A stretch of 44,748 nt of DNA, taken from positions 1 to 44,748 of the forward strand of contig JAAYZF010000032.1 of NCBI GenBank assembly GCA_012514975.1, read 5' to 3'. Below, one piece after another: positions 4,791-35,753 of the stretch. The position numbers and the translations under genes are program-made. The notes under the pieces were generated by a model. That model saw only the letters and a program-made list of their open reading frames with translations, was not told the origin of the DNA and did no database searches. The first letter of the stretch is position 1. The number at the start of each line of letters is the position of its first letter. This stretch comes from a bacterium (GTDB taxonomy: Bacteria > Auribacterota > UBA3054 > JAAYZF01).

Positions 4791-4807
4791 GTCCTGCCGA
4801 GGTCACT

Positions 4808-15476: not shown

Positions 15477-16628
15477 TCAACCAGCCGGGAACAGGTGCTT
15501 GACTGTGTTGGCGTAATAGTCGATGATGTCCGCGCGTTTGACGCGGATGTACATCGAGCTGTCCTTGGTGTGGATGCAGATGGCGTCGCGGAATCGCACG
15601 CGGTTGCACAGGTGTTCGAGCGCGCGTTTGAACACCTGGCCGGGGGAACGATGGCTGACGCCGCGGCCGATGAGGAGGCAGTTGTCCTTCGTGTATTTGA
15701 GGTCGGCGCGGATGTGGCGGAAGAGATCGTCCATCGGCACGGACGTACGGCCTGCGAGCGCGCGGCAGACGAGCGCCACGGCCGTCACGCGGATGAGTCT
15801 GCCCATGCGGGTGCGGAGCTCGCGCTCCAACTCGTCCATGTACTTGACATCCTTGACGTACATGGGCTCGCCGAAGTCGACGTACACGGCGCCTTTGGGC
15901 TGGAAGATGGCATGGCGGATGAACCCTCGTTTGTCGTAGGCGCGATAGGCATCCGCACCGGCGGCTTTCTGCTCGCGCATGCGATGAAAGCGCTCATCCT
16001 CGGTGACGCGGTCGTACGTCATGCCGACGGGCAGGAGAGCGACGCGGTGGGTGCCTTCCTTGAGCGCCCGTTTGGCGATGCCAAAGACGCCGAGCGCGAG
16101 CGGCTGGATGCTGCCGTCGTACGAGCGGCCCGCTTCAGGGAAGATGGTGATCGCGTCGCCCCTGTTCATGACTTCGTCCATCAGGTAGTCGTAGAAGGTC
16201 GACAGGTAGAGGAGGTTCTCGCGCGAACGAAGGTTTTTCGGATTGACCTTTTCGCGGTCGAGGCAGACGCCCTTGAACCGCGGGAGCATCCCCTCGAACA
16301 GGCCATGAAAGAGATTCTTGCCGGCGATGGTCGCGGGCAGCGACTTCATGTTGCTGAAGAGCACGTGGCCGAGCACGATGTAGTCAAGATGGCTCTTGTG
16401 GACGCAACTGAGGATCACGTAGGTGTCTTTTGGCATCGTGAGAATGTGATCGAAGCCGCCGACGATGACCTCCGAGAGGAAGAACCGGTCGAGAACAAGC
16501 CTCACGGGCCTCGCCATCCAGCGCGTGAACTCGTAGCTGTAGCGGTGGGCGATCTCGCTGCGATACTGCTTCGAGAGCCTTGCGGCCGCATCCTCGGTCA
16601 ATCTGCCTGCAGAAGCCATTGCATCCAT
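15477..16628 (-). CDS. Glycerol-3-phosphate/lysophospholipid acyltransferase (PlsB/PlsC-like)
   Basis: 383-aa acyltransferase of membrane lipid synthesis. The catalytic HX4D motif is HKSHLD (His77, Asp82) in SCVHKSHLDYIVLGHVL. The substrate motif is IFPEAGRSYDG (163-172). Region KGVCLDREKVN and motif ALLPVGMTYDRV complete the four-block pattern. HKSHLDY is closer to PlsB (HRSHMDY) than to typical PlsC, but the protein is only about half the length of E. coli PlsB. It could act on glycerol-3-phosphate or lysophosphatidate. Start chosen at 16628 (MDAMASAG); 16619 is the alternative. A TATACT lies at 16646-16651 on this strand without a convincing -35 box. Divergent from the giant membrane protein. 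Confidence 0.8.
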   Translation of the reverse strand: MDAMASAGRLTEDAAARLSKQYRSEIAHRYSYEFTRWMARPVRLVLDRFFLSEVIVGGFDHILTMPKDTYVILSCVHKSHLDYIVLGHVLFSNMKSLPATIAGKNLFHGLFEGMLPRFKGVCLDREKVNPKNLRSRENLLYLSTFYDYLMDEVMNRGDAITIFPEAGRSYDGSIQPLALGVFGIAKRALKEGTHRVALLPVGMTYDRVTEDERFHRMREQKAAGADAYRAYDKRGFIRHAIFQPKGAVYVDFGEPMYVKDVKYMDELERELRTRMGRLIRVTAVALVCRALAGRTSVPMDDLFRHIRADLKYTKDNCLLIGRGVSHRSPGQVFKRALEHLCNRVRFRDAICIHTKDSSMYIRVKRADIIDYYANTVKHLFPAG

Positions 16629-16728: not shown

Positions 16729-16757
16729 TTGACCTCTGCCGTTGCTTCCGGTATGAT
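16729..16757 (+). promoter_or_regulatory. sigma70-type promoter of the giant membrane protein
   Basis: TTGACC (16729-16734), 17-nt spacer, TATGAT (16752-16757). The predicted transcript starts near 16764, leaving a leader of about 29 nt containing AGGAAAGG ahead of the ATG at 16793. Confidence 0.75.
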
Positions 16758-16792
16758 AGACGGACGTGTCACAGCCCACAGGAAGGAAAGGC

Positions 16793-19700
16793 ATGAATTC
16801 GCGCGAGCAGAATGATCTCATCCTGTTTCTTACCGGCCGCGCAGCGTGCGGCGCATTGCCGGCCGAACACATTGTGCCCGTGCTGCGTGAGCTGTGTGCC
16901 GGAGCAGGCGCGCAACGGCTGTCATCGACGCTGATAGAGCCGCTGGCCGGCCTGCAGGCGCCTGTTGCGGCAGCGTTGTTCGGTCAGTTGTGCGGCGAAC
17001 TGGTTGCAGACGCGCAGACGTGCCATGTTGCGTACGTGACCAGCGGGGCGTTGCCGGCTGATTGGCGCGCGCTGCTTGGCGGGTGCGCGCGGGAAATTCC
17101 GCCGGCATGGGCGGGCGTCACGGAGTCGTGTGCTGAACTCGACAAAGGCATTGCCCTTGCTGGTGATCAGTTTCTCGCCGTGGCGCACCGTGCGTGGCTC
17201 GGCGGCGTCACGGCGAAGATTGACGCAGCATTGCGCGGCGCGGCGGTGCTGGTGCACGACAGCCCGTGCGCGTGGCATGGCGATCTTGTGCGCGCCATCA
17301 TCGGCATGCTCGAGCACCGCGCAGCGACGCCGGAGCAGGCCGCGCGCATCGCCGCGTTGCGCGCGCGGTGCGATGAATGGATGAATGCCACGGCCACGGG
17401 CACGCCTGCCACGGCGGACGCCATTGGGGCTCTCGCGGCGCTTTCGGCGCGCAATGATCGCGGCGCGCTTGGCGCTGCACAGGCGGCGTTTGCCTCCACG
17501 ACCGATCGCGCCGCGCGCGCCGCGATACTCGACGTGCTGTGCACGTGGCCGACATGGCGCATGGCATGCGTGCTGCCAGGCCTCGCAACCGAGCCGTGGG
17601 CGCAACTGCGCGCGGCGGTGCTGCTGACGCTGCGGTTCGGTGCGCCACCGGATGCGCGATGGCCCTATTGGCAGCGATGGCTGGAGCTGACGGCCGGCGC
17701 AGTGCGCAGGGAGGATGATCGATGCGCGGCAGTGTGCGCACAGCATCCTGCGCGGGCGGCTGCGTTGTGGCTTGCCGGATTGCCCGAACGCGACACGGCG
17801 CTCGAAGAGGCGCTGGCCGGATGGAGCGGTGCGCTGGAGGCATCGTCGGGCGGGTCGTTCGTCCAGCGCTGGGGAACGGAAATGCCCGCGGAGGTCCGGG
17901 CCGGCATCGCCGGCATCAATGCCGCCGGCATGTCCGTGGCAGGCGAGGACGCGCCGCGGCAGGCGGTGCTGGAGAAGCCGGAGGAGGGCTTCCAGGCGGA
18001 GCCGTCAGTGCTGCGCGCGCGCGTCCACTCATTCCTTGCAGGGAACTGGTTCATGATCGCGGGCGCGCTGATGGTGGTGATCGGCAGCTCGCTTGTTGCG
18101 TACTACACATGGGACAAGCACTGGCTGTGGCGCTACACGATCATGCCGGCGCTGCTGGCGCTGCTCACGGCGGGGATTGCGCGCGTGGGCGGCTGGATGG
18201 AGCGGAAGGATGAGCAGTTCCGCGATACTGCCGCCGTGCTTCGCGCGATAGCGATCGGCCTCGTGCCGGTGAACATGATGGCCGTCGCACTGCTTGCGCG
18301 CGACCCGCAGGTGATGGTGCGCGGCGTGCTTTCGCCCGTGGTTGCAGCCGCGTATCTTGCGGTGGCGGGCGTGGCGTTGGTGCGCTGGTGCCGCGCGGTG
18401 CATCCCCCGCTGGGCGTTCCGCTGGGCATGACATTGCTTGCATTCACGGCGCAGGTTGTGCTGGTGCCGGTGCTGGGCGCGATGGGCGGGTCGTCCATGG
18501 CGGCGGACGAAGTGCTTTCATGCGGTTTCCACGGCGCGTTCGCGGTGGCGGTGTTGTTCGTGCTGCACGCGCTGCGGAGCGGCGATGCGGCGATGCCGGC
18601 GCGGCGCGTCATATGGTTTGCCGCGGCAGCGTGCGCGGTGGTTGTCATCGAGGCGTTCATCTGGTCGTACGGCTATCTGGGCCTTGCGCCGCGCGCGCGG
18701 ACGTATGCGTTGATGATGGCAGCGGCTGGCTGGCTGCTGCTGGTGATCGCGCGGCGCATAGGGCGCCCGGGCGCAGAAGGCGGGCCGATCAACGTGGAGG
18801 CGTTCGCGGGGTACGCGGCGGTGCTGCTGGGCGTGCTCATGGGGGTCACCGGGCAGTGGATGCGCATCGCGGTATGCATCACAGCCGCCGGCGCGCTGAT
18901 GCATGAAGCCATCGCGCGGCGCCACACGGTTCAGTACTGGCTGTCATGTGCGTTTCTGACCGCGGGCGCGGCGTCCGTCGGATTGCTGGACGTGTTCCCG
19001 CGCGAATGGCTGGCAGCGCTGGGCATCGGGTACGCAGCCGTGCTCAGCGGCATCATCATGGCGGGCGGACGGGCGAAACTTTCCGTCCTGGTTTCCGCGG
19101 GCATTGGGACACAGGTGACCGTCCTGTTCATTACGTCCGTCGTGGCGGTGCTTGCGCAGTGGCAGTACCGGACGGAGCCGGTGTGGACGGGCGCGGCGCT
19201 GGTGTGCATCGCGGCGCTGTTCGCCCTGCGCGCCGTGCGCGGGCAGCAGGTGCGCTGGCTGCACACGGCTGCGGTGATGCCCGCGCTGGCGCTGCCGTAC
19301 CTTGGCTGCGTGGACATCATGGGCCGCACGCTGCGCGGGAACACGCTTGTCTTCGGCCTTGCCGTGCTCTCGCTCGCGTGGATGATTGTGGCACGCGTGC
19401 GGCGGACAGGGCTCGTTGCGCGCGCTCGGTCGACGGTGCTGACACTGTACGGTGCATTTGCCATTGCGGCCATGGTGGTGCGCGTGCTCATCGAGCAGTT
19501 CAGGCCCGCGCACGGGCCGTCGTGGCATACGGGAATGGACCTCGGCGGCCCGCTGATGATCACCGCGGCGCTCGCCTGCACGGGATATTTCACGCGGTCG
19601 CTGCTGCCGATGGGCATGGGCGCGGTGATCATGGTCATTCTGTTCCCGGAGATGAAGGCGGATCTGCAGCTCTGGTTTCCGCAACTGGCGTGGGGCAGCG

Positions 19701-22700
19701 GGCTGGGCAGCGCGATCAGTGCGTTCGTCCTCGTGCTCGCCTGCTTCGGCGTGCGGCGCATTCCGCGGCTGCAGCGGCTCGAGGGCGGCGACAAATTCAT
19801 GGATGCAGCGGCGTATCCGCTGCTCCGGAGCGACTACTCGCTGTTCACGATTCCCGTGCTGATTTCGGCGGCGTTCCTGATGGGCAAGGTTGCGACGTGG
19901 AACGTGCTGAGAAACCTGGCGCTGTCGGGCGTGGGCACGCACACATGCGCCGCGCTGCTCATCGGCGGCGCGGGATGGATGTGGATGGCGGTGTATCTCC
20001 GCGCGCGGGGCAGCGCGCCTCTGTTCACGCATCTTGGCTGGCTTTCCCTTGCCGAAGGCGTCATGTTCGGGTACCGCCATGTCGTTGACAAGCCGCACTG
20101 GAGCTGGCCGGTGCTCGCCACGCTCGTTTCGTTCCAGATGCTGTACTGGGCGTATCGCTTTGTCGTTGAGCGCTGGTGCGACTGGGCGCGGCGGGTGCTG
20201 ACAACGCCGCTGCTGCACGTGCTGCGCTACGGCAGCCAGGCGGCGCTCGCCGTGTGCGTCATTGCGCTCTGGTGCGGCGGCATGTTCGAGCGCACATGGC
20301 CGCTGGCGGCGTTCCTCGGGGCACAAATGGCGTGGCAGGCGGTCATGACGGGCGGAGTGTTGTACGGCACGCACCTGTTTGTCCTCGGCATCACGTGCCT
20401 GCTCGCGTGGACCGGCGCAGACAGAAGGCTGATCGTGCACCGGCTGTCGGTTGCGCGCGATTTCACGCCTGCGTTGCTGTATCTGGCTGCGTGGCAGGTG
20501 GTGCATGGAGCGCTTGAATGGAGCGGGAACGTGTACGGCAGGCTGCGCGGGCTGATCCGGCCTGCATTGCTGCTGTCGACGCTGATCGCGGCACTGATGG
20601 CGCTTGTGCTCCCGGCGCTGCTGATGGCTGGCGTGCGCATGCCGGATGCGCTCCAGTTCTCCCTGCTGGGCGGCATACTGCTCGTTGCCGCGCGGGCCAG
20701 CCGATCCATGCCGTTCGTGACGCTCGCGGCTGGAGTGTTGTATCTGCTGGCGAACCGCGCGGGGCTCGTTGCGCAGGCGACCCCGGCGGGAAGGCTTGGC
20801 GTGCTGCTTGCGCCTGACGGCCTGGCGGTGCTTGCCGCGGGAATGGCTGTCGCGCCCGTGGCGGGCATTCTGCCGGCCAGGCGCGCGCGCTGGCTGTTCG
20901 CGCGCGACACGGGCATTCGGGCGCTTGCCGCGCCGGCCGCGGGCTGGCTGTTCCTTCCTGCGGCGCTGTGCGCCATGTTCGCTGTACTCCATTACACCAT
21001 GAATTCCGCGTATTCCGGCGCGCGTGAGTGGCTGTGGGTGCCGTACACATGCGCGGCGGCATGCGGCGTGGTTGCCGCGGTCTGGCAGCCTGGGGTGATG
21101 AGCGTGCTTGCTGCTGTCATTGCCACGGTGGCGAACGTGCACGCGGTGCATCTGCTTGCCGGCGCATTCCTGAGCGCGCATGGTGTTGCGCCGATGCACG
21201 CGGTGCTGCTTGGCTGTGCGGCGACGGTCGCGCAAGCGTACGTTGTGCCGCGCCGTGTCCTGGGTACCGCGCGGGCTGCGGCGGTTGGCGGCGTATGCGG
21301 CGCATGCATTGCCGTGGTCCTGGTGCTCATTGCAGCGGAGTATGCATGGAGGCCGGGCATGGAGCGGCTGACGTTCTGGCGGCTGTGCAGCGCCGGCGCC
21401 GGCGCGCTTGTTGCCGCGGTGTACACCGCGCGCGGCGCAGTGGGTGCGGGAGATGCGCTCCCGCCGGGCAGGCGGGTGGCCCATGCCATCGCGGCAACCA
21501 TCGCGTTGTGGTGCGCTGGGTTCATGATCCCCGTGTGCCGCCTGCCGGAGACGGCGCTGGCTGTTCTGATGGTGCCCGGCGCGTACTTCATGCTGCGCGC
21601 GCGTGCCAGCAGCGGCCGGCAGTTTGTGAACGCGGCAGCCGTCATATGGCTCGCCGTGCTTATCGCCGCCTTTTCGCCTGCTGCGTATCATGTCGCACTC
21701 TTCCCGCGGACGGCGATCGGTGTCATGCACTATCATGGCAGCGCGCCGTATGCAATCGTGGCGGGCATTGCGCTGTTGTGGTTGCACGGCAGGCGCAGGA
21801 TGCCGGGACTGGCCGTTGCGGGCGGCGCGGCGGTGTTCGCGGGCAGTTTTTTTGCTGTAACCGGGTACGACTCGTTCAGCCCGTTCGTGGACGGCATGCG
21901 CGCGGCATGGTGCGCGATCGGGCTGGCACACGCGTGGCTGCTGCTCATGGCGCCGAGATCGCCCGTCATGCGCCTTGTGCAGCGCATGACGGCTGCGGAT
22001 GACGGGCGTGCGGCGATGATGCGTGCATGGTGGCGCGCGTTCCTCGCGTTCGCGATGCATGTTGTGATCATCGCCGGCATCGGTGCATGCGACAGCCGGC
22101 CGCGGATGATCGCTCCGCTGGTCCTCGGGGCCGCATCGGTGATGATACACAGCGGCATCGCGGGCGGCTCACGGCTGGCGCTCGTGCTTGGCGGCATCGA
22201 GCTCTTTGTCGCGCTGCACGCCGATTTCATCGTGGCAAGCTATCTGCCCCGCAGACAGGTCGTCTGGGCGCTGCTTGGCCTCTGGGCGTTGTGGACTGCG
22301 GGGAGCCATGTGCTTGCGCGCCGCGGCAGGGCAGTCCCGGCAGGCATCGTCTCGAGCGCGAGCGCTGCAATCGTTTTCTGCCATATCCTCTACCATCATC
22401 CGTGGTCGACCGCAGGATTGTGGGCCATGGCGGCTGCGTGGTTCCTGGTGGTGCTCACTCCGCGTGCCGCGCGCGCGCCGCGCATGTTTGTGGAACGACT
22501 TGCGTCGTTGGTGGTCCTGCTTGTGCCCGTCTGGCTGGTGTTCTTCAGTCAGGTGCCGGCGCAAGGGCCTTTCGCCAGGCACGCGGACCTGACGTGGGCA
22601 GTCTTGTCAGCGACGGTTGCGCTTGTGGCGGTGGGCATTGCGGCGCGGGCTTTTGCGTTGAGGGCTGCTGCGGCGTACCGGGCGCTGCCGCGCGCATTTC

Positions 22701-23773
22701 CGGTGATGCTCGATCAGTGCCTCGAATGGGCCTGCGGCGCAGGCCCGGCGCTGCACATCGTGACGCTCGCGGCGGGATTCCTCGTGATGGGCATCGTGCA
22801 GGCGGCGCACTACTCGACGGCATTCGCCTTGCGCGAAGCGGTGGCGCTGGGCGCGCTGGCGCTCGGCGGCGCGTGGTGCTGGGTGCGCGCGGGAGCGATG
22901 CGGGAGCGCATGCTGCCGTTCTTCCTTGCACAGCTCTGCCTGCTGTCATTCGCCGTTCTCGTGCGCCGGCATATCATGCTGACAACCAGCCTGTGGAAAC
23001 CCGTGTACGACGTGTGGGCAAGCCTTGCAACATCAGCCTTGCTGACAGGCTTCAAGCACGCGATCGATGCGCGGCCGCGCGCCGTGCGCGTACCGTTCAT
23101 CACCACCGTGCTGATCCTGCCGGTGCTGACAATGGTCTGGGTGCTCGTCCATCATATGGGCAGCACTGCCGTGCTCATCGTTGCCGGCCTGCACACAGTG
23201 TTGTTCGCCTATCTCGGCAAGGACGATCGCGAATCGCCGTACCAGGCGCTCGGCGTGTGCTCGTTCATCACATTCCTGCTGGTCCTGTTCTGGGCAAAGC
23301 TGTCACTGCGCGTCGCATATGCGTATGTGATCCCGGCGGGCACCGGGCTGCTGGTGCTGGTACAACTGTTCCGCGACCGGCTCGCGCCGGCGGTGCGCGG
23401 CATCATCCGTTTCATCGCCGTCACCGCCATGCTGGGAAGCGCGTGTTACTATGCGCTGATTGGCGGCCAGTATCCCGTGGCGCATCTTGCGATCTTCGGG
23501 CTGCTCTGCCTCGGCGTGATGGGGCTTGGCGCCGTGCTGCGCATCCGATTGCACCTGGCACTGGGTTTTGCCGGGCTGGTCGTGGACCTGAGCGCCGTGG
23601 TCTACAAAGTCATCATGACCATGCAGCGCGGCGGGCAGATGATCATGATCGGCGGCATGGTGCTGCTGCTGGGCGTGGTGCTCGTTGCGGGCGCTGTCTA
23701 CTCGAAAACACACCGCGGCACCATCGCGGAGACGCTGGCCGCATGGCGCTCCCGGTTGCGCGAATGGGAGTGA
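16793..23773 (+). CDS. Giant polytopic membrane protein (DUF2339-like)
   Basis: 2326 aa, one uninterrupted frame. Residues 1 to about 410 are soluble and mostly helical, Ala/Arg-rich, without a motif I recognise. From about residue 415 (SFLAGNWFMIAGALMVVIGSS) to nearly the C-terminus the sequence is an almost unbroken series of hydrophobic helices separated by short Arg-rich loops, on the order of 50-60 segments. The start of that region is reminiscent of DUF2339/DUF2157-type proteins, which are much shorter. There is no ATP-binding site, catalytic motif or signal peptide. ATG 16793 has AGGAAAGG immediately upstream and a strong promoter. Possible roles (cell-envelope polymer handling, a membrane scaffold) are guesses only. 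Neighbour genes give no clear hint. Confidence 0.8.
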   Translation: MNSREQNDLILFLTGRAACGALPAEHIVPVLRELCAGAGAQRLSSTLIEPLAGLQAPVAAALFGQLCGELVADAQTCHVAYVTSGALPADWRALLGGCAREIPPAWAGVTESCAELDKGIALAGDQFLAVAHRAWLGGVTAKIDAALRGAAVLVHDSPCAWHGDLVRAIIGMLEHRAATPEQAARIAALRARCDEWMNATATGTPATADAIGALAALSARNDRGALGAAQAAFASTTDRAARAAILDVLCTWPTWRMACVLPGLATEPWAQLRAAVLLTLRFGAPPDARWPYWQRWLELTAGAVRREDDRCAAVCAQHPARAAALWLAGLPERDTALEEALAGWSGALEASSGGSFVQRWGTEMPAEVRAGIAGINAAGMSVAGEDAPRQAVLEKPEEGFQAEPSVLRARVHSFLAGNWFMIAGALMVVIGSSLVAYYTWDKHWLWRYTIMPALLALLTAGIARVGGWMERKDEQFRDTAAVLRAIAIGLVPVNMMAVALLARDPQVMVRGVLSPVVAAAYLAVAGVALVRWCRAVHPPLGVPLGMTLLAFTAQVVLVPVLGAMGGSSMAADEVLSCGFHGAFAVAVLFVLHALRSGDAAMPARRVIWFAAAACAVVVIEAFIWSYGYLGLAPRARTYALMMAAAGWLLLVIARRIGRPGAEGGPINVEAFAGYAAVLLGVLMGVTGQWMRIAVCITAAGALMHEAIARRHTVQYWLSCAFLTAGAASVGLLDVFPREWLAALGIGYAAVLSGIIMAGGRAKLSVLVSAGIGTQVTVLFITSVVAVLAQWQYRTEPVWTGAALVCIAALFALRAVRGQQVRWLHTAAVMPALALPYLGCVDIMGRTLRGNTLVFGLAVLSLAWMIVARVRRTGLVARARSTVLTLYGAFAIAAMVVRVLIEQFRPAHGPSWHTGMDLGGPLMITAALACTGYFTRSLLPMGMGAVIMVILFPEMKADLQLWFPQLAWGSGLGSAISAFVLVLACFGVRRIPRLQRLEGGDKFMDAAAYPLLRSDYSLFTIPVLISAAFLMGKVATWNVLRNLALSGVGTHTCAALLIGGAGWMWMAVYLRARGSAPLFTHLGWLSLAEGVMFGYRHVVDKPHWSWPVLATLVSFQMLYWAYRFVVERWCDWARRVLTTPLLHVLRYGSQAALAVCVIALWCGGMFERTWPLAAFLGAQMAWQAVMTGGVLYGTHLFVLGITCLLAWTGADRRLIVHRLSVARDFTPALLYLAAWQVVHGALEWSGNVYGRLRGLIRPALLLSTLIAALMALVLPALLMAGVRMPDALQFSLLGGILLVAARASRSMPFVTLAAGVLYLLANRAGLVAQATPAGRLGVLLAPDGLAVLAAGMAVAPVAGILPARRARWLFARDTGIRALAAPAAGWLFLPAALCAMFAVLHYTMNSAYSGAREWLWVPYTCAAACGVVAAVWQPGVMSVLAAVIATVANVHAVHLLAGAFLSAHGVAPMHAVLLGCAATVAQAYVVPRRVLGTARAAAVGGVCGACIAVVLVLIAAEYAWRPGMERLTFWRLCSAGAGALVAAVYTARGAVGAGDALPPGRRVAHAIAATIALWCAGFMIPVCRLPETALAVLMVPGAYFMLRARASSGRQFVNAAAVIWLAVLIAAFSPAAYHVALFPRTAIGVMHYHGSAPYAIVAGIALLWLHGRRRMPGLAVAGGAAVFAGSFFAVTGYDSFSPFVDGMRAAWCAIGLAHAWLLLMAPRSPVMRLVQRMTAADDGRAAMMRAWWRAFLAFAMHVVIIAGIGACDSRPRMIAPLVLGAASVMIHSGIAGGSRLALVLGGIELFVALHADFIVASYLPRRQVVWALLGLWALWTAGSHVLARRGRAVPAGIVSSASAAIVFCHILYHHPWSTAGLWAMAAAWFLVVLTPRAARAPRMFVERLASLVVLLVPVWLVFFSQVPAQGPFARHADLTWAVLSATVALVAVGIAARAFALRAAAAYRALPRAFPVMLDQCLEWACGAGPALHIVTLAAGFLVMGIVQAAHYSTAFALREAVALGALALGGAWCWVRAGAMRERMLPFFLAQLCLLSFAVLVRRHIMLTTSLWKPVYDVWASLATSALLTGFKHAIDARPRAVRVPFITTVLILPVLTMVWVLVHHMGSTAVLIVAGLHTVLFAYLGKDDRESPYQALGVCSFITFLLVLFWAKLSLRVAYAYVIPAGTGLLVLVQLFRDRLAPAVRGIIRFIAVTAMLGSACYYALIGGQYPVAHLAIFGLLCLGVMGLGAVLRIRLHLALGFAGLVVDLSAVVYKVIMTMQRGGQMIMIGGMVLLLGVVLVAGAVYSKTHRGTIAETLAAWRSRLREWE

Positions 23774-25570: not shown

Positions 25571-26662
25571 TCAGTGGCGGCCGTAGCGGTAGTACGCGGC
25601 GCAACTGCCTTCGCTTGACACCATGCACGGGCCGATCGGATGCTCGGGCGTGCAGCCGATGCCGAAGAGGCCGCAGTCCTGCGGCATGCATACGCCGCGC
25701 AGCACGTCGCCGCATTTGCATCCGTGCGGCTCGTGCGGCTCGAACGCGGGGACGTCGAGCCTGCCGAGCGCGTCGAGGCCGGCGAATTCGCTGCGCAGCT
25801 TGTACCCGCTGAGCGGGATCATGCCGAGGCCGCGCCACACGTCGCCGGCAACGTCAAACACTCTGGCGATCACCGCCTGGGCCTTGCGGTTGCCCTCGAA
25901 TGTCACGCTGCGGCCATACTGGATTTCCGTGTCGCACCGGCCGTCCGCGATCTGTTCGATGACCATGGCGAGCGATTCGAGCAGGTCGCACAGCTCGAAG
26001 CCCGAGACGACGCACGGGCGCTTGAACTCCTCGCCGATGAACCGGTATGCGTGCGCGCCGATGATCGTGGTGACATGGCCTGGCGCGATGAAGCCGTCGA
26101 TCACCTGTTCCTCGTCCTGCAGCAGCGCGCGCATGGCCGGCGGGGTGAGTTTGCCCGCGGCGAGGAAGAAGAAATTTCCCATTCCGGCTGCCGCGGCAGC
26201 GGTGACGGCGGTGGCAAGCGTTGGCGCGGTCGTCTCGAACCCGACGCCGAGGAGGACGCACGTGGCGTCAGGATGCTGCTGCGCGAACTCGACGGCCTGG
26301 AGGGCCGAATAGATGATGTGAAGGCTGTCTTCCCGCGCGCTGTTCGCCAGCGACGTGTGCGAGCCCGGCACGCGCACCATGTCGCCGAACGTGAACACGT
26401 GCACGCCGGGCCTGCCGCAGAGCCAGATGGCCGCGTCGATCACCGTGCTCGCCGTCACGCACACCGGGCAGCCGGGGCCCGAGATGATGCGTACACGCTC
26501 GGGCAGGACGGAGTGGATGCCGGTGCGGAGGAGCGCAGCGGTGTGGCCGCCGCAGATTTCCATGACACGCACGGGCCTGTCGAGCCTTCCGGCCGCGCTG
26601 TTCAGCCGCCCGAGCAGCGCGCGCGCAAGGCTTGGGTCGCGGAATTCATCGAGGTATTTCAT
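25571..26662 (-). CDS. hypD: Hydrogenase maturation factor HypD
   Basis: 363-aa iron-sulfur scaffold on which, with HypC, the Fe(CN)2CO unit of [NiFe] hydrogenases is built. All hallmarks are present: MEICGGHT with Cys37, SGPGCPVC with Cys65 and Cys68, GFETTAPT, and the C-terminal cluster-binding cysteines in HGCKCGDVLRGVCMPQDC and GIGCTPEHPIGPC. Length is normal. Its start overlaps the end of hypC by 17 bases, so the two are translationally coupled, matching their joint function. Confidence 0.97.
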   Translation of the reverse strand: MKYLDEFRDPSLARALLGRLNSAAGRLDRPVRVMEICGGHTAALLRTGIHSVLPERVRIISGPGCPVCVTASTVIDAAIWLCGRPGVHVFTFGDMVRVPGSHTSLANSAREDSLHIIYSALQAVEFAQQHPDATCVLLGVGFETTAPTLATAVTAAAAAGMGNFFFLAAGKLTPPAMRALLQDEEQVIDGFIAPGHVTTIIGAHAYRFIGEEFKRPCVVSGFELCDLLESLAMVIEQIADGRCDTEIQYGRSVTFEGNRKAQAVIARVFDVAGDVWRGLGMIPLSGYKLRSEFAGLDALGRLDVPAFEPHEPHGCKCGDVLRGVCMPQDCGLFGIGCTPEHPIGPCMVSSEGSCAAYYRYGRH

Positions 26663-26888: not shown

Positions 26889-26909
26889 ATTTCAGATTTC
26901 AGGTTTCAG
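26889..26909. repeat. Heptamer array CTGAAAT type x3 at the hypF-hypC junction
   Basis: On the minus strand CTGAAAC, CTGAAAT, CTGAAAT, preceded by a degenerate CCGCAAC. The array supplies the last codons and TGA stop of the upstream gene (RNLKPEI-stop) and ends 4 nt before the hypC start codon. Confidence 0.8.
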
Positions 26910-28052
26910 GTTGCGGATTGACGACGCCATGACAGAAGCGGCCCGCACGCCCGCAAGGACGGCCTGGCCAAGCGACAGGCCGGCATCGCTTGGCGGCACA
27001 CGCGACGGTGTGACCAGCGTGCAGCCGCGTTCCTCAAGCATCGCGCGCAGCGAATGCGTGAAGCGCCTGTTCCAGAACACGCCGCCCGCGGCGGCGACGG
27101 TCTTCACCGCGCCGCCATCGATCCGCGCGCACCACGCCGCGACCGCCTCGGCGAGCGAATCGTGGAACCGCGCGGCTAGCGTCGCCGGCGAAGCCCCTTT
27201 GCCCATCTCGTCACTCATCCGCTGCACCATCGGCCGCCAGTCAAGTTCCTCCAGGGCATCCTCGCGGGCGAACGGCAGCGGGTAGAGCCCGCCGGCGTCT
27301 GTCGCGCCCGCGGCATGCTCGAGCGCGACCGCCGCCTGTGCCTCGCGCTCCGCACACGGGCAGATGCCCAGCAACGCCGCCACGCCGTCGAACAACCTTC
27401 CGACGCTCGAGGACCGCACCGGTGCATCTGCGCCGGCGGACAGCAGATGCTGGACAACGGCAAGCCGTTCGGCCGGCACGCCGCGCGGCAATGCCCGCCA
27501 GCGGCTTTCGTCGACGCCCGCGTCGTGCAGCAGAGCCAGCGCGATGCGCCACGGCTCGCGAATCGCCGCTTCGCCGCCTGCGAGCGTCATGGGCCGCAGG
27601 CGCGCCCTGCGCACGAACCCGTCGTTGAGCGAGCCGGTGAAGAATTCGCCGCCCCACAGCGTGCCGTCCGCGCCGTAGCCCGTGCCGTCGAACGCCAGGC
27701 CGATGACACGGCCCGCGCATCCCTCGGACGCACAGCAACTGGCGACGTGGGCCTCATGGTGCTGCACGGCCAGATGCCGCGCGCGCGGATGGAGCGCGGG
27801 GGCCGCCTTGGTCGTCACATACTCGGGATGCAGGTCATGCGCGATGATCGCGGGCTCGATGCCCAGCTCGCACGGCCATGTTTCGACACGGCAGCGCCAT
27901 TCGTCGAACGAGGCGGCGTCCTTGAGATCGTCGAGGGGGGCGCTCACCCATGCCTGCGTGCCCGCGGCGATGCAGACAGTATTCTTCATCTCGCTGCCCA
28001 GCGCAAGGACGGGCGCGTGAAGCGCGAAAGGAAGACTGACGGTGGCAGCCAT
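26892..28052 (-). CDS. hypF: HypF reduced to its Kae1-like carbamoyltransferase half
   Basis: 386 aa compared with about 750 for complete HypF. The protein starts MAATVSLPFALHAPVLALG, which corresponds to the point in full HypF where the YrdC domain ends and the Kae1-like domain begins (PVLALGSEMKNTVCIA). That domain is intact, with metal-binding HHEAH (98-102), DGTGYGADGTLWGGE and the C-terminal AAGGVFWNRR region. The acylphosphatase, zinc-finger and YrdC-like parts are missing, and upstream DNA is hypB with only 29 nt between, so there is no frameshifted first half. HypF makes the CN ligands by carbamoylating HypE; this form would need carbamoyl-adenylate from another protein, or act like the shortened HypF1 reported in Cupriavidus necator. 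No ribosome site is obvious at the start. Confidence 0.88.
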   Translation of the reverse strand: MAATVSLPFALHAPVLALGSEMKNTVCIAAGTQAWVSAPLDDLKDAASFDEWRCRVETWPCELGIEPAIIAHDLHPEYVTTKAAPALHPRARHLAVQHHEAHVASCCASEGCAGRVIGLAFDGTGYGADGTLWGGEFFTGSLNDGFVRRARLRPMTLAGGEAAIREPWRIALALLHDAGVDESRWRALPRGVPAERLAVVQHLLSAGADAPVRSSSVGRLFDGVAALLGICPCAEREAQAAVALEHAAGATDAGGLYPLPFAREDALEELDWRPMVQRMSDEMGKGASPATLAARFHDSLAEAVAAWCARIDGGAVKTVAAAGGVFWNRRFTHSLRAMLEERGCTLVTPSRVPPSDAGLSLGQAVLAGVRAASVMASSIRNLKPEI

Positions 28053-28081
28053 TGTGCAGGCGCGGAACAGCACGCGCGATC

Positions 28082-28795
28082 TCAGTGATGGTGAGGCTGA
28101 AGCGCCTTGTGCTCGTACCTGCCACGCAGCCACGAGACAAACGCGTCAAGCCCTTCGCCTGTCGTGCTCGAAAGGAGCATCACCGGCAGGTCGGGATTGA
28201 CCTGCCAGATGCCTTCCTTGCAGCGGTCAACATCGAAGGACACATGGGGCAGAAGATCGATCTTGCTTATCACTGCGGCGCTCGCATGGGCGAACGCGGC
28301 GGGGTATTTCTCGGGCTTGTCGTCCCCTTCGGTCACGCTGAGGACGACTAGTTTCTCGTCTTCGCCCACGTCAAACGCGGCAGGGCAGACCAGGTTCCCG
28401 ACGTTCTCGATAACGACGATCTTCGCCGAAAGGAACGGCTCGCGCGCAAGCACGCGCGCCACGCCGTCCGCATCGAGATGGCAGCCGCCGCCCGTGTTGA
28501 TCTGCACCGCGGCGACACCGCACCGCCTCAGCCGCTCGGCGTCATAGCGCGTCTGCACATCGCCCTCGATGACGGCAACGGGCAGATCGCGCATGAGCAG
28601 CGGGATCGCCTTCTCGAGCAGCGTTGTCTTGCCCGAGCCGGGCGCGCTGAGGATGTTCACCATGAAGGCGCCGCGATGCGCAAGCTCGTGCCGCGTTTCG
28701 TCGGCGATGGCATCGTTTTTCGAGAGGACTTTCTCCTCGATCGAGACGACGCGGCGTTCGCCGTGGTCATGGGTGTGTCCGTGTCCTTCGCACAT
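28082..28795 (-). CDS. hypB: Hydrogenase nickel-insertion GTPase HypB
   Basis: 237-aa SIMIBI GTPase that delivers nickel to [NiFe] hydrogenase. P-loop GSGKTT (53-58), switch GDVQTRYDAERL, metal-site NTGGGCHLDA (Cys106, His107), ENVGNLVCPAAFDVGE and base-recognition SKIDLL are present. The N-terminus (MCEGHGHTHDHGE) and C-terminus (HHH) are His-rich and may store nickel; the CXXCGC site of E. coli HypB is absent. Start 28795 was chosen by the family N-terminus. First gene of the hypB-hypF-hypC-hypD operon, directly behind a good promoter. HypA, its usual nickel-chaperone partner, is not in the window. Confidence 0.96.
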   Translation of the reverse strand: MCEGHGHTHDHGERRVVSIEEKVLSKNDAIADETRHELAHRGAFMVNILSAPGSGKTTLLEKAIPLLMRDLPVAVIEGDVQTRYDAERLRRCGVAAVQINTGGGCHLDADGVARVLAREPFLSAKIVVIENVGNLVCPAAFDVGEDEKLVVLSVTEGDDKPEKYPAAFAHASAAVISKIDLLPHVSFDVDRCKEGIWQVNPDLPVMLLSSTTGEGLDAFVSWLRGRYEHKALQPHHH

Positions 28796-28890: not shown

Positions 28891-29451
28891 CTACAGCCCT
28901 GCGCTGCTGAACCAGGCGAACAGGGCAAGCACGCCGAGCGCCACAGGCACTATGACCACCCATGGATTGACGTGCAGGAGACGCGGCAGCGTCAGATCGC
29001 CGAACTCGCCCTTGTGCAGCACCGCGCGGTCGAGCAACGGATACGCAGCCGCAAACAGCCCCGCGCCGATGACGATCCCCGCCATTCCCGCCACGGCATC
29101 CAGCGCGCCGTGCCCCGCCGCGCCGGCGACCGTGCCCGGGCAGTAGCCGAGCAGGCCGAAGCCGACGCCAAACAGCACTCCGCCGATGACCGTCGCGCCG
29201 GCAGAGCCCTGCTTGGGCTTCAGCGTTGCCGCTCCCACGGCGTGCAGCGCGTGGAAGCCCACCATGCCGGTGACCATGGCGGCGAGCATGATTTTCACCA
29301 CTGTCATGTCGCTGAACAGGAGCTGGCCGATGATGACACTGTAATCGGTCGCGCCGCCTTTCTGCAGGAGAAAGCCGAAGCATACGCCGACGAGCAGGCC
29401 AACTCCAAGCTGCCACCAGCGTTGCTGCCTTGGGTTCTTGATCTGTTCCAT
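28891..29451 (-). CDS. YeeE/YedE-type sulfur transporter, half-size (second subunit)
   Basis: 186-aa membrane protein with about five helices (LGVGLLVGVCFGFLL, GGVLFGVGFGLLGY and others). The motif GLLGYCPGT with Cys104 is the conserved cysteine of the sulfur-transport (DUF395/DUF6691) repeat, thought to relay thiosulfate or sulfane sulfur across the membrane. Complete YeeE contains two such halves; here each half is its own gene, the other at 29493-30005. The start ATG 29451 has a strong GGGAGGA site. It forms an operon with the half-transporter and the MBL/rhodanese enzyme upstream. Confidence 0.85.
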   Translation of the reverse strand: MEQIKNPRQQRWWQLGVGLLVGVCFGFLLQKGGATDYSVIIGQLLFSDMTVVKIMLAAMVTGMVGFHALHAVGAATLKPKQGSAGATVIGGVLFGVGFGLLGYCPGTVAGAAGHGALDAVAGMAGIVIGAGLFAAAYPLLDRAVLHKGEFGDLTLPRLLHVNPWVVIVPVALGVLALFAWFSSAGL

Positions 29452-29478
29452 AGCGGTCCTCCCTTGATGTTCCACGTT

Positions 29479-29492
29479 CTGAACACTGAACA
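29479..29492. repeat. Heptamer repeat CTGAACA x2
   Basis: Two perfect 7-nt copies in the 41-nt gap between the two half-transporter genes. The array directly abuts the stop codon of the upstream gene (29493-29495). Confidence 0.7.
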
Positions 29493-30005
29493 TCAGAAGC
29501 GATAGAGCAGGAATGCCGTCGCAATCCCGCCCGCGAAGAAACATGCCGCTGCAAGCCAGCTACTGACGGCAAGCTGCGCCGTGCCGCTGATGCCATGGCC
29601 GCTCGTGCAGCCGCCAGCCCAGCGCGCGCCCAACCCCATGCACACGCTGCCGGCCAGCGCAACGGCAACGCGCTTGAACACGCCGGGGCCGAACGACGCG
29701 CGCCACATCTCCGGCACCCATTGCAGCGCCCACGTCCCGGACAGCCATGCCGACAGGGCCGCGCCGATGATGACGCCGAGCACGAGCATCCATTCCCAGT
29801 CGACGGAAGGGGGGAAGGCCTGGTAGTATGGTTTCCGGCACACGCGTTCTCCCCGCGCGAGCTTCTCGATCATGCCGCTCGTGCGCGCGAACGCGGTCGA
29901 GCAGCCGATCGGTTTTTCGAGCAGGATGAGCGCGATGGTGTTGAGCACGCCGATGCACACGCCCACGGCATACGGCGACCAGCGATCCATTGCGAGCCAG
30001 TTCAT
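29493..30005 (-). CDS. YeeE/YedE-type sulfur transporter, half-size (first subunit)
   Basis: 170-aa membrane protein. It has KPIGCSTAFARTSG with Cys35 and GARWAGGCTSGHGISG with Cys133, the two cysteine motifs of the sulfur-transport domain. Four to five helices are visible. The start codon shares ATGA (30002-30005) with the stop of the MBL/rhodanese gene and has GAGAGG upstream. With its neighbour it would form a heterodimeric channel for thiosulfate or a related sulfur species. The pairing with a persulfide-processing enzyme supports that; the substrate is inferred. Confidence 0.87.
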   Translation of the reverse strand: MNWLAMDRWSPYAVGVCIGVLNTIALILLEKPIGCSTAFARTSGMIEKLARGERVCRKPYYQAFPPSVDWEWMLVLGVIIGAALSAWLSGTWALQWVPEMWRASFGPGVFKRVAVALAGSVCMGLGARWAGGCTSGHGISGTAQLAVSSWLAAACFFAGGIATAFLLYRF

Positions 30006-31447
30006 GCGTTACCTCTCTTTGTCCGGGGTTTTCCACCTGGGAATGCCGGCCCGTGCGGCGCGAGGCACGCGGGGCACGCGGCTGCATACCGCGCGTTCGC
30101 ATAGCCTGTCATGCCGCCGGCGACGTTGCACACGCTGGTGAATCCGTGCTGCTCGAGAATGCTTGCGGCGAGGGACGAGCGATGGCCTGTGCTGCAGATG
30201 CACGCAACGGGTTTTCCCCTGTCCACTTCATTGAACCGCGTGCGCAGGTCCGGTGCCGGGATGTTCGTCGCGCCGTCGATATGGCCTGCATCGAATTCGC
30301 GCGGCATGCGCACATCGAGCACGGCAAGCGCAGGCCCTTTGTCCATGCACTTGTGCAGCTCCGCTGCGGAGAGCAGGCCTGTGTGCGCCGTGGGCAGTCC
30401 CGCGACGGCCCAGGCGAACATGCCGCCATCGAGATATCCTGCCGTGCCGTCGAGGCCGACGCGCCGGAGGAGCACCGCGGCCTCCTCAGCCTGTGCCGCC
30501 GTGTGCGCCACGAGCAGGATGCGTTTGTCCGGCGGCAGCACCCAGCCGGCGAACGTCGGGAAATTCCCGCCGCTGTCGATGTGATACGCATGCGGCACGT
30601 GCTGGCCGCAATAGGCCTCGTACGCGCGGACGTCGAGGACGATCGTCCCCGCTTTGCGCGCCCCGGCACTGAACGCAGCGGGCGCCAGCGGCCGCGGGGC
30701 GGGCAGTGTGCGCACGAGCGCCGGCCCCTTGCGGTTGACGGCGCTGCACCGGCTGAAATGGTCGGGCGCGGCGGGCATGTTGGTGGTGAGCGACGCGACG
30801 AACTCTGGTATCGCCCTTATCTGGAGCGCCGGGTTGTACAGGCGTTCATAGCCGATGGTGCTTGTGCGTTTGGCCCCCATGGCGCGGCCGCAGAGGGAGC
30901 CTGCGCCGTGCGCCGGGTAGACTTCGCACATATCGGGCAGCGCGAGCAGTTTGTCATGCAGGCTGTGATACAGCGTGGTGGCAAGCTCCTTCGCGATGCG
31001 CGGGAACAAGTCAGGCCGGCCCACGTCGCCCACGAAGAGCGTGTCGCCGCAGAACACGCCGGCCGGTTCGCTCCCGCGCGCCTTGTCCACGACAACGTAT
31101 GACACGTGCTCGGGCGTATGCCCCGGCGTCTCGATCACGCGTATGACAAGGTTGTCGATCGCGAGGGACGAGCCGTCGGCGACGGCGCGATGCCTGAAGG
31201 CACAGCGCGCGCTCTTTGGCGCGACGATCGTCGCGCCCGTTTGGTCCGCGAGGTCGAGGTGCCCCGAGATGAAGTCGGCGTGAAGATGCGTCTCGAGGAT
31301 GTGGGTGATTGTCATCCCCATGTCCTTTGCCGCGTCAAGGTAGATCTGCACGTCGCGGCGCGGGTCGATCACCGCGCATGACTTTGTCCCGCCGAGCAGG
31401 TAGGACGAGTGGGCGATGCCCTTGACGAAAAACTGCTGCACGAACAT
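30002..31447 (-). CDS. MBL-fold persulfide-dioxygenase-like enzyme fused to two rhodanese domains
   Basis: 481 aa, no signal peptide. The N-terminal metallo-beta-lactamase domain has THLHADFISGH (His54, His56, Asp58), PGHTPEH (His110, His114), FCGDTLFVGDVGRPD (Asp135) and YPAHG (His180), the pattern of ETHE1-like persulfide dioxygenases, in which the final His of HXHXDH is often replaced. Rhodanese domain 1 (about 255-352) lacks the catalytic cysteine (LLVAHTAAQ). Domain 2 (about 360-455) has an active loop CSTGHRS with Cys418. Expected role: oxidation or transfer of glutathione- or protein-bound persulfide sulfur. The start has AGGGAGG. It lies between a methyltransferase and the sulfur transporters, with ATGA overlap to the latter. 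Confidence 0.9.
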   Translation of the reverse strand: MFVQQFFVKGIAHSSYLLGGTKSCAVIDPRRDVQIYLDAAKDMGMTITHILETHLHADFISGHLDLADQTGATIVAPKSARCAFRHRAVADGSSLAIDNLVIRVIETPGHTPEHVSYVVVDKARGSEPAGVFCGDTLFVGDVGRPDLFPRIAKELATTLYHSLHDKLLALPDMCEVYPAHGAGSLCGRAMGAKRTSTIGYERLYNPALQIRAIPEFVASLTTNMPAAPDHFSRCSAVNRKGPALVRTLPAPRPLAPAAFSAGARKAGTIVLDVRAYEAYCGQHVPHAYHIDSGGNFPTFAGWVLPPDKRILLVAHTAAQAEEAAVLLRRVGLDGTAGYLDGGMFAWAVAGLPTAHTGLLSAAELHKCMDKGPALAVLDVRMPREFDAGHIDGATNIPAPDLRTRFNEVDRGKPVACICSTGHRSSLAASILEQHGFTSVCNVAGGMTGYANARYAAACPACLAPHGPAFPGGKPRTKRGNA

Positions 31448-31488
31448 GATGCCTCCCTGTGTCGTTGGTTCGGCGGAATCCCGCATGT

Positions 31489-32112
31489 TCAGCGTGCGGC
31501 TTCGCGCCTGCACACCAGCAGGAAGAGCGAATACTCGCGCACGCCGGCCCCGCGCGTGCGGCGCAGGACGTGGCACGTGTCGCACGAGCACGGGGTGAGC
31601 CCTGCCGCCTCGGCCCGCGCCTTCAGCGCCGCGCGGTCAAACCCCCTGTGCCCCTTGAAATCGGCTCCATGGAACGATCCGTCCTCCGTGTCCAGATCAG
31701 CAATGCACACGTATCCGCCCGGACGCACCATTGCGCCGAACGCGCGCAGCACCGCATCAACATCCTCTACATGATGCAATGTCATCTGTGTGCAGATCAG
31801 GTCATACTGCCGCGCCGGCGGCGGCCCGGCCGCAAGATCGAGCAAAAGAGGAGCCATGTTCGCCGCGCCGGCAGCGTTGATCTTTTCAGCGCATACGGCG
31901 AGCATTCCAGGCGAGCTGTCTGCGAGCGTGACATGCCCCAGGCTGTCGCTCAGGGCGAAGCTCAGCAGGCCCGTGCCGCAGCCGTATTCCAGCATGTGCA
32001 TCGAGACATTCACGGGCACGCGTGCGCACACCGCCCGCGCGACCGCGCGAGCCATGTCGCTGCGCGCGAGGTCTTCGTCCCATGATCGCGCCCGGTCGTC
32101 GAACTCGTTCAT
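31489..32112 (-). CDS. Class I SAM-dependent methyltransferase
   Basis: 207 aa. SAM motif I is LEYGCGTG (41-48), the acidic residue ending strand 2 is in VTLADSSPGML, and later motifs are YDLICTQMTLHHV and LRAFGAMVRPGGYVCIAD. It belongs to the UbiE/small-molecule methyltransferase type (Methyltransf_11/25); the substrate is unknown. The C-terminus has an unusual CSCDTCHV cysteine cluster before the last strands. Its start shares ATGA (32109-32112) with the EFR1-type gene and its stop lies 41 nt before the MBL/rhodanese start. The sulfur context suggests a thiol, persulfide or metal(loid) acceptor; this is speculation. Confidence 0.85.
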   Translation of the reverse strand: MNEFDDRARSWDEDLARSDMARAVARAVCARVPVNVSMHMLEYGCGTGLLSFALSDSLGHVTLADSSPGMLAVCAEKINAAGAANMAPLLLDLAAGPPPARQYDLICTQMTLHHVEDVDAVLRAFGAMVRPGGYVCIADLDTEDGSFHGADFKGHRGFDRAALKARAEAAGLTPCSCDTCHVLRRTRGAGVREYSLFLLVCRREAAR

Positions 32113-32926: not shown

Positions 32927-35617
32927 TCATTCCAGCAGATGCAGCACGTAATAGAGCACGTCCGGCTTCAGTGTGATCCCCGCGGCCGTGCCCGCCTGCC
33001 CCACCGGCACGCCGTTCGCATCGAGCGCCTCGACGGCGAGATTCACCGCGTCAGCCCGCTTCAGCTTCACCGTGCCGGCGAACTGGCGCACGATGATCGG
33101 CGCGGCGCCAAGGGACTTGATCTCGCGCAGCCCTGTCCCCGGCGCGTCCCACCCGCTGTTCTGCTGCTCGGTCATCACCTGCAGCAGCAGTCTTGTCGAC
33201 GTGGCAATCGGCCGCCCGTCCATTGCGACCAGCGCCACCGCGGCATACTCCATCGGTGTCTCGACCGTCACATCGGGCAGATCGATCGCGCCGGCCGCGC
33301 GGAGGAACCCAACGGCAGCCTGCGCCTTTGGCGCCATGATCTTGACGAGCCCGTTGCCATAGTCCCAGCGCAACTGGCCCGTCGAGCTCGTGATCACTTT
33401 CCCCTTCTCGTCGATGTACTTCTTGAGGTCAATCATCTGCTGGCTGTTGTCGTTCGACGTGAAATTGACGCAGACCTTGCCGACGAAGAACGCGCGCGGG
33501 TCGATCGATTCGAGGGTGTCAACGCGGCCAAGCGCCTCCTTCGGCACATCCTCCGCGCGGTTCGCGTCCTGGCTGGCAACGGCATTGATGGGAACGCCTT
33601 CGAGGTTCATCACGCTCTCGACCGTGCGGTTTACCACGACCGCCGGCTTTGCCTCGTCAAGCAGGCCGAGCCGGTAGATCAGTGCCGCCGCGGGAAACTG
33701 GCCCATGTCCGTCGGCGTCTGGATCGGATAGTAGTCGTCGCACGCGTTCAGCCAGCCGGGCACGGAATCGAGGGCGAACATGATCATCGCATCCTGCCCG
33801 AGCATCGAGGCGACGGACGCGGAGAGCAACGGGGCTTCGGCGCGGAAGCGGTTGGGCGTCGTCCACGCGTATTCCGAGATGGTTGCGGGCATGCCGTTGT
33901 AGATGACGTCGGTAATCGGCAGGCCCCAGTCGTGCGTGCTCTTGCCGCCGCCGGCGGGCTGGAACGTGACGGCCGTGCGGTCGTCATACCAGTCGCCGGG
34001 CGCGGTGGCGAACTCGGGGCTCACTTTCTTCGTCGCGGGAGAGAAGTACCCGTGCGCGTCCATGAAATCGGCGAAGGTGTTGCAGTATTTGTCAATCGGG
34101 CCGAGATACCTGTCGTCAGCGGTGCGCCAGTTCGACGCGTAGATCGATCCCTTGAACCGGCAGTCGTCGCGAATCCATGAGTACATGCGCTTGAAGAAGG
34201 CGATCTGGGTCTCGGCGAGGAACCGCGCGGTGTCCTGCTCGCGCATGCCGCGCGTATTGAACAGCTTCCACAGCGGCACGAAGCCGATGCGTCCCGCGGC
34301 CGGGTCGTCATGCGGGTCCGCGGCATTCGGGCCCCATTTTTTCAGCGCCGTGTCAATCGAGCCGTGGCGCTTGGCGAGCCAGTCGCCGAACTGCTTCTCG
34401 AACAGCGCCATCGTCTGCGCCGGGATGCGCTTGTAGTCGAACGTCCAGAAGAACAGCGAGTCCTCGTTGATGATCTCGATGAACGCCACGGCCGGATCGT
34501 CGCACAACGGTGCGCCCGTCCACCGGTTCGTCGCCGTCAGTAGAGCCTTCTGCCATGACTGGTACATCGCCTGGTAGCCGGGATGGAAGAAATGGATGGC
34601 GAAGGGGAGCGTCTCCTCGGTGTATCCCGGGAACTGGGCGAGCTCATTGATGCGAATCCAATGCTGGAAGTAGATCGAGATCAGCGAGTAGATGCCCTCG
34701 CGTTTCATCGCCGCGACGAAGTAGTACAACTGGTCCAGATAGGCGACATCGGGCTGGCCTGCCTTTGGCCCGCTGGTGAAGTAGACGGGGCCGTGGATGC
34801 GCACGAGATTGACGCCCTTGCGCGCGAGCACGCGGGCAAGGTGGTCGACCTCGTCATGCGACATGCGCACGACGGCAGGGCCTGCGTTGACGGCCCAGAA
34901 ACGGACGGGCTCGCCGGTGTCTGCATGGACGAACGACTCGCCGCGCACGCGGATGAAGCCGCGGCTGCCCGCTTCATTTTCGTTCAGCAGGCCGCGCAGG
35001 TCGAGCGGGGTGTCGGCAAACGCGTCGTACGCGGGCGTGAAATTGAACCAGTTCGACGACGGCGGCGGGTAGGGCGCATCCGGCTTTGCCGGCCCGCGCG
35101 GGATGAACGGCTCCGTCGTCAGGATGAAACAGTCGAAACACGCCGCGCCGCTCTCGAGAATCTCGATCCGCAGCGTGTGCACGCCGGCGGTGAGCGAGAC
35201 CGCGCCCGCGTACACCCATGTCGCCACAAGATGCTGCGCCAGCCGCGCCGAATCGAGCAACGAGATGTCGCGTGTCACCGTCTGCCATTCCTGCGTGTCG
35301 AACCGCCAGCGGAACGGCCCGTGCTTCCAGAATTTCCGCGCGTAGAAGCGATACCCCGCCGTCTCGGGCACCGTGACCGCATACTCGATGAAGGCAGGCG
35401 TCGTCGATACATCGATCACGCCGCCTATCCATGCGCCGCCGGACAGGACGGCCTTTCCAGCCGCGTCGCCCGGCTGGAATGTGTTTCTGCCGGTGATGCT
35501 CGTCTTGCTTGGCTCCTCGCCCTCCCACCAGACGTACGCGGCCGAAGCAGCGTGCGCCGCAAGACATGCGATTGCAGAGATGAGAATGAGTGCGGTTGGT
35601 CTGCGCGTGCGGGTCAT
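32927..35617 (-). CDS. Secreted GH-A clan glycosidase-like protein with WWEGE N-terminal domain
   Basis: 896 aa. Signal peptide 1-26 (ending AHAASA), then AYVWWEGEEPSKT, the start of a beta-sandwich (about 28-175) that is probably carbohydrate-binding. From about 220 a (beta/alpha)8 barrel begins (RVRGESFVHADTGEPVRFW, ARKGVNLVRIHG). The predicted acid/base is Glu385 in FIEIINED and the nucleophile Glu582 in ATISEYAW, the Asn-Glu and Glu positions of clan GH-A. A C-terminal beta domain follows. I cannot assign a GH family or substrate. Paralogue of 38046-40727. ATG 35617 has CGGAGA upstream and a good promoter. The stop lies 14 nt from the EFR1 start, so transcription may continue into the sulfur operon. 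Confidence 0.8.
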   Translation of the reverse strand: MTRTRRPTALILISAIACLAAHAASAAYVWWEGEEPSKTSITGRNTFQPGDAAGKAVLSGGAWIGGVIDVSTTPAFIEYAVTVPETAGYRFYARKFWKHGPFRWRFDTQEWQTVTRDISLLDSARLAQHLVATWVYAGAVSLTAGVHTLRIEILESGAACFDCFILTTEPFIPRGPAKPDAPYPPPSSNWFNFTPAYDAFADTPLDLRGLLNENEAGSRGFIRVRGESFVHADTGEPVRFWAVNAGPAVVRMSHDEVDHLARVLARKGVNLVRIHGPVYFTSGPKAGQPDVAYLDQLYYFVAAMKREGIYSLISIYFQHWIRINELAQFPGYTEETLPFAIHFFHPGYQAMYQSWQKALLTATNRWTGAPLCDDPAVAFIEIINEDSLFFWTFDYKRIPAQTMALFEKQFGDWLAKRHGSIDTALKKWGPNAADPHDDPAAGRIGFVPLWKLFNTRGMREQDTARFLAETQIAFFKRMYSWIRDDCRFKGSIYASNWRTADDRYLGPIDKYCNTFADFMDAHGYFSPATKKVSPEFATAPGDWYDDRTAVTFQPAGGGKSTHDWGLPITDVIYNGMPATISEYAWTTPNRFRAEAPLLSASVASMLGQDAMIMFALDSVPGWLNACDDYYPIQTPTDMGQFPAAALIYRLGLLDEAKPAVVVNRTVESVMNLEGVPINAVASQDANRAEDVPKEALGRVDTLESIDPRAFFVGKVCVNFTSNDNSQQMIDLKKYIDEKGKVITSSTGQLRWDYGNGLVKIMAPKAQAAVGFLRAAGAIDLPDVTVETPMEYAAVALVAMDGRPIATSTRLLLQVMTEQQNSGWDAPGTGLREIKSLGAAPIIVRQFAGTVKLKRADAVNLAVEALDANGVPVGQAGTAAGITLKPDVLYYVLHLLE

Positions 35618-35643
35618 GCCAGTCTCCGGTTGGGTTGCTCCAT

Positions 35644-35672
35644 AGTATACCACCAATCTCCACGGCACGCAA
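35644..35672 (-). promoter_or_regulatory. Promoter of the minus-strand glycosidase
   Basis: Minus-strand TTGCGT (35667-35672), 17-nt spacer, TATACT (35644-35649). Predicted transcription start near 35637, 20 nt before the ATG. Its -35 box is only 3 bp from that of the divergent promoter. Confidence 0.7.
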
Positions 35673-35675
35673 CAG

Positions 35676-35705
35676 TTGACACATGAGGAAAGGGAATGGT
35701 ATAGT
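35676..35705 (+). promoter_or_regulatory. Promoter of the isomerase-creatininase-glycosidase operon
   Basis: TTGACA (35676-35681), 18-nt spacer, TATAGT (35700-35705). Predicted start near 35712, giving a leader of about 42 nt with GGGAG before the ATG at 35754. The two -35 boxes are back-to-back, so one bound regulator or polymerase could affect both directions. Confidence 0.75.
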
Positions 35706-35753
35706 GCACACGCAAAGACGCACCACAGGCCAGACACACCCGGGAGACATGCC

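Follow-up and report, generated by a model that had tools for sequence, protein, structure and literature searches.

One gene of the window (the whole stretch of 44,748 nucleotides analyzed here) encodes a giant polytopic membrane protein that belongs to a real but uncatalogued family, which occurs across phyla and carries a number of helices far beyond that of the nearest characterised family. Topology calculations and structure models predict this protein (hereafter, the giant) to be an inner-membrane protein with approx. 62 helices, a helical (HEAT-like) cytoplasmic N-terminal domain followed by an uninterrupted helix array, and both termini in the cytoplasm, and sequence profile comparisons indicate that it is probably a distant relative of the DUF2339 superfamily. 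The family also reveals a large gap in the coverage of protein family databases.

The gene and the predicted layout of its product

The coding region is a single open frame that runs uninterrupted through 2,326 codons from the ATG at 16793 to the stop at 23773, with an in-frame GTG at 16766 as a possible earlier start. A purine-rich stretch ahead of the ATG (aggaaggaaaggc) could bind the ribosome. The near-consensus promoter proposed in the original prediction was found as one promoter-like site, as compared to 0.2 sites expected in shuffled sequences. GC contents by codon position (0.70, 0.53 and 0.81) agree with those of the other genes of the window and are of the coding type, and the gene is present as a single copy in its own genome.

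Table 1. Features of the giant gene, its product and the adjoining acyltransferase gene in the window
Feature	Position	Strand	Remarks
Glycerolipid acyltransferase gene (PF01553; nearest NCBIfam model PlsB)	15477..16622	-	divergent, ~173 bp from giant gene
Sigma-70-like promoter, TTGACC-17-TATGAT	16729..16757	+	consensus match only
Gene of giant polytopic membrane protein	16793..23773, stop included	+	2,326 aa
N-terminal soluble all-helical domain, aa 1-405	16793..18007	+	predicted cytoplasmic; from AlphaFold2 and alignment
First membrane block, aa 410-505	18020..18307	+	sole part matching DUF2339
Membrane region, aa 420-2302	18050..23698	+	62-64 predicted helices
C-terminal block, aa 2033-2326	22889..23770	+	common to otherwise different relatives of 1,215-2,047 aa

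A soluble region of about 410 residues followed by helices had been anticipated, in good agreement with the approx. 405 residues found. This N-terminal domain contains a conserved motif (approx. L9-L34), a HEAT-like patch (approx. aa 230-300; HEAT_2 matches are weak, with E = 0.12, in two members) and a disordered linker (approx. aa 376-405). In the relatives at L012:9401-9533 and L014:717-800 the domain is preceded by a zinc-ribbon-like CxxC...CxxC element, which is absent from the window protein.

The number of helices was calculated from the family alignment with a home-made topology predictor using the positive-inside rule, which gave 58 to 64 helices depending on the settings, 62 to 64 under most of them, and 54 to 66 for single members; hydropathy averaged over the family gave 61 to 64 hydrophobic segments. 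The original claim of exceptionally many helices was thus upheld, while the count of 50 to 60 was exceeded for most settings. Both termini were predicted to be cytoplasmic in 17 of 18 members, and the density of Lys and Arg was 0.195 in inner loops as compared to 0.084 in outer loops. The short Arg-rich loops described earlier represent an ordinary positive-inside signal. AlphaFold2 models of the two halves of the giant were helical throughout (mean pLDDT of 77 and 78) with a pTM of approx. 0.5; this poor global confidence means that helix packing cannot be taken from the models, which are usable locally.

Three regions are the most conserved: the first membrane block (aa 401-500), aa 1651-1700 and the C-terminal 230 residues. 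The C-terminal block closes with a tail (...WE) that is predicted to be cytoplasmic. The signature shared by the family, GSSLxAYYTWDKHWLxRYTxxP (aa 431-452), falls in the predicted outer loop that joins helices 1 and 2.

The original prediction also suggested growth by duplication of a DUF2339-like unit. Among 105 alignment-window pairs within the giant, four showed similarity with E-values of 3e-4 to 2.5e-3, whereas none of 105 reversed pairs scored better than 0.011 (larger alignment), although reversed controls are an imperfect null for membrane proteins. Pairs with E-values of 3e-4 to 5e-4 joined residues 676-844 to 1758-1925, 1773-1896 to 2019-2148 and 1069-1163 to 1186-1281, and two offsets (approx. 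+1082 and +248) recurred among self-similar pairs. These E-values and offsets weakly suggest a possible ancient duplication of blocks of about five helices; the paired segments, however, are not DUF2339 units.

Distribution of the family and of its shorter relatives

A first scan of one genome per species, which used exact peptide seeds so that the family counts are lower bounds, identified at least 12 loci in Verrucomicrobia, Lentisphaerae, Planctomycetes, a "Deltaproteobacteria" MAG (which the tree tool placed in Myxococcota) and a MAG of Elusimicrobia (in which the gene is in pieces, split by contig ends). Complete relatives are single frames of approx. 2,330 to 2,390 aa with 28 to 38% identity to the window protein from end to end. 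Profile searches added two members from Verrucomicrobia genomes and several from Planctomycetota, with identities down to 16-19%. The giant was found in 3 and 1 genomes, respectively, of two Verrucomicrobia samples of 195 genomes each (the seed genome being counted in each), while a sample of 216 Planctomycetota genomes contained approx. 8 long members, two of them among those found earlier. It was absent from the 58 listed relatives of the source genome. Overall, the phylogenetic survey called for by the original prediction revealed a patchy and rare occurrence in several distant phyla. In a tree of the family, members L122 and L123 were set apart, those from Lentisphaerae and Verrucomicrobia were grouped, and the window protein stood alone on a long branch.

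As the giant is present in only 1 of 44 genomes of its own phylum, an artefact (i.e., misassembly, frame fusion or binning error) was considered, but we regard it as extremely improbable. Many unrelated genomes carry relatives that are equally long and encoded in a single frame; these relatives rule out misassembly and frame fusion, and they bear out the claim of one intact frame rather than a misassembly of two genes. Moreover, the contig fits its own genome in tetranucleotide usage (r = 0.98), which makes a binning error unlikely.

The family is not represented in Pfam, NCBIfam or the PDB, so that profile searches placed the giant in no well-studied family; a PADLOC search likewise gave nothing useful, and plasmids showed no match to it. 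Foldseek searches against the PDB and viral models returned low-TM matches only (helical solenoids and tape-measure proteins) and were uninformative. Neither the giant nor any member matched an enzyme family in Pfam or NCBIfam, and the original observation that no catalytic motif is visible therefore stands.

Further relatives, unnamed and also not in Pfam (L014, L114, L115, L117 and L118; 1,215 to 2,047 aa), combine a C-terminal block with a similar N-block; their coordinates include L014:633-5774, L114:3687-7331 and L117:7789-13905 (minus strand). They share with the giant a C-terminal block of approx. 280 aa (hhalign E-values of 1e-6 to 1e-10 for L117 and L014) but differ from it in an unalignable middle part and in lengths that vary by whole helix stretches.

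Relationship to DUF2339 and gene neighborhood

Relationships were assessed with hhalign against profiles built from fetched DUF2339 proteins; as the resulting E-values refer to single pairs, they were judged by reversed controls. Residues 410-491 matched a profile of 12 DUF2339 sequences with P = 92% and E = 5.8e-7 (reversed controls no better than 0.05), and the first block matched an 8-sequence profile with E = 3.4e-6 (reversed controls approx. 0.02), while the isolated N-block reached only E = 0.001 with the larger DUF2339 set. Sliding windows over the rest of the giant remained at the control level except for a weak C-terminal signal (E = 0.0015 to 0.008). The DUF2339-like stretch thus represents about 80 to 100 of 1,900 membrane residues. 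The Pfam model PF10101 (DUF2339) matched none of 13 members at E-values up to 10, nor the window protein at E-values up to 1. These results indicate that the suggested similarity to DUF2339 applies to the first membrane block, which we take to be homologous, and does not extend across the whole membrane region; as both the Pfam comparison and whole-length homology failed, we do not file the giant as a DUF2339 member.

In the L014 relative (1,713 aa), the same block matched the first DUF2339 alignment with E = 5e-6, a match that was not repeated with the larger DUF2339 set. The other two families proposed for profile checks found no match: PF09925 (DUF2157) matched no giant member, and DUF2723 gave no match in Pfam-A scans of the giant and members. 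Both the giant and a DUF2339 protein are encoded in 6 of 15 giant-carrying genomes, so that the two are not mutually exclusive and the giant does not simply stand in for the DUF2339 protein.

In the window, the giant gene adjoins the divergent acyltransferase gene (PlsB/PlsC type) listed in Table 1. At locus L013, genes for a C92 peptidase, an Aas-like acyltransferase-ligase, an LplT-like transporter, the giant, a PlsC-type acyltransferase and a PAP2 phosphatase follow each other in this order on one strand, with short gaps (18 and 35 bp on the Aas/LplT-like side upstream of the giant). An acyltransferase thus adjoins the giant in 2 of approx. 14 loci with readable flanks, and the two enzymes belong to different subfamilies. 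Such a link was not seen at L002, L004, L005, L006, L007, L010, L059 or L119-L123 (neighbors of L119-L123 being partly Pfam-scanned), and L012, the sister of L013, has no acyltransferase neighbor. No neighborhood was common to all giant loci.

Elsewhere in the window, a HypF gene (26892-28133, minus strand) encodes only 413 aa, in which the two Kae1-like domains but no acylphosphatase/YrdC part were detected; it adjoins HypD (25571-26662) and may be a hydrogenase maturation gene that has been truncated or split. Genes for sulphur-transport membrane proteins stand beside a metallo-beta-lactamase/rhodanese fusion at 28891-31591 (minus strand), likely a sulphur-handling cluster. In addition, an 8-base unit (TCATCAAG) is repeated in tandem at 4736-4793, immediately ahead of the NAD synthase gene at 4808, and a 963-aa frame at 32927-35818 (minus strand) matches no Pfam family.

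Possible functions and comparison with known systems

In Pseudomonas aeruginosa, DUF2339 is represented by Arc3A, which has 35 predicted helices, a number that the authors describing it called unusual and tied to an unknown mechanism, and no residues indicative of enzymatic activity (PMC8926400). It was shown to prevent the build-up of lysophosphatidylethanolamine and monolysocardiolipin under phospholipase toxin attack, and aas genes adjoin arc3 genes in many bacteria; the same authors raised the possibility of lysophospholipid sequestration by the helices (PMC8926400). Protection against lipase effectors was confirmed in a later screen (PMC12663445).

By analogy, the giant may be an oversized, distant Arc3A-like protein that handles lysophospholipids in the inner membrane, a reading that we hold tentatively, as plausible though somewhat short of probable. 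It represents the best lead since the remote kinship of the first block coincides with the same kind of neighbors in two loci. The helix array would take up lysophospholipids or partition them out of the bilayer and so prevent membrane damage, alongside reacylating enzymes of the PlsB, PlsC or Aas type, while the soluble N-terminal domain might dock a partner. The narrower proposal of a single-chain lipid sink, i.e., an array of approx. 62 helices that absorbs lysophospholipids and protects the inner membrane together with reacylating enzymes, enlarged far beyond the Arc3A form, appears rather doubtful.

The main rival to the Arc3A-like role is a structural organizer, in which a wide array would shape or partition the inner membrane without specific lipid chemistry, with the soluble domain anchoring it to cytoplasmic partners. 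The all-helical fold, the conserved length and topology, the lack of matches to enzyme families, the placement of the best-conserved charged residues mostly in loops or at helix ends and an occurrence mainly in Planctomycetota and Verrucomicrobiota are consistent with such a scaffold, but a distribution that is very patchy, and rare even inside families, ill suits a core structural part, and the outer-loop sequence AYYTWDKHW is conserved beyond the need of filler; we thus consider this explanation somewhat unlikely. The LplT-like, Aas, PAP2 and acyltransferase neighbors at L013 would also suit a lipid or polymer transporter or flippase in which a single chain provides several pathways, as would the few polar residues conserved within predicted helices (e.g., N1448, R1530, R1663 and H1786). 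Such a function is nevertheless unlikely, as the giant resembles no transporter family in Pfam, NCBIfam or the PDB and no ATPase or other energy module is linked to it across loci. An envelope-stress sensor, whose array would read lipid packing and whose cytoplasmic domain would signal, is suggested by LiaF, a protein of the phage-shock network that contains DUF2157 (PMC11237479), and by the match of the first block of the 1,215-aa relative L114 to DUF2157 (E = 9e-6, under the Pfam cut-off). We judge this reading quite improbable, as no linked regulator or PspA-type gene was seen and the scores of the giant itself against DUF2157 were not clearly above those of reversed controls, for which reason DUF2157 homology was rejected.

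Under the Arc3A-like reading, lysolipid handling by helix arrays can be approached through two testable features, namely the first block with its conservation and the run of genes at L013. Moreover, a conserved but uncatalogued family with nearly twice the helices of Arc3A, whose members keep one length across distant phyla, suggests selection in favor of such arrays.

DUF2157 (PF09925) proteins carry a first-block signature similar to that of the giant, but those found measure approx. 335 to 650 aa, and the giant has no DUF2157 match. The giant differs from Arc3A in having no Pfam match, in that only the first block can be aligned and in that no Arc3B partner was recognized. With DUF2339 proteins and Arc3A, on the other hand, it shares a soluble N-terminal part followed by a similar first membrane block (GxxxxxGxxxxxYxWDxxW...R), the Arc3A-like combination of very many helices after this block with no catalytic motif, and possibly, as at two loci, acyltransferase or LplT genes as neighbors. 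It is roughly double their size, with approx. 2,330 aa and 62 predicted helices as compared to approx. 800 to 1,130 aa in the fetched DUF2339 proteins and the 35 predicted helices of Arc3A.
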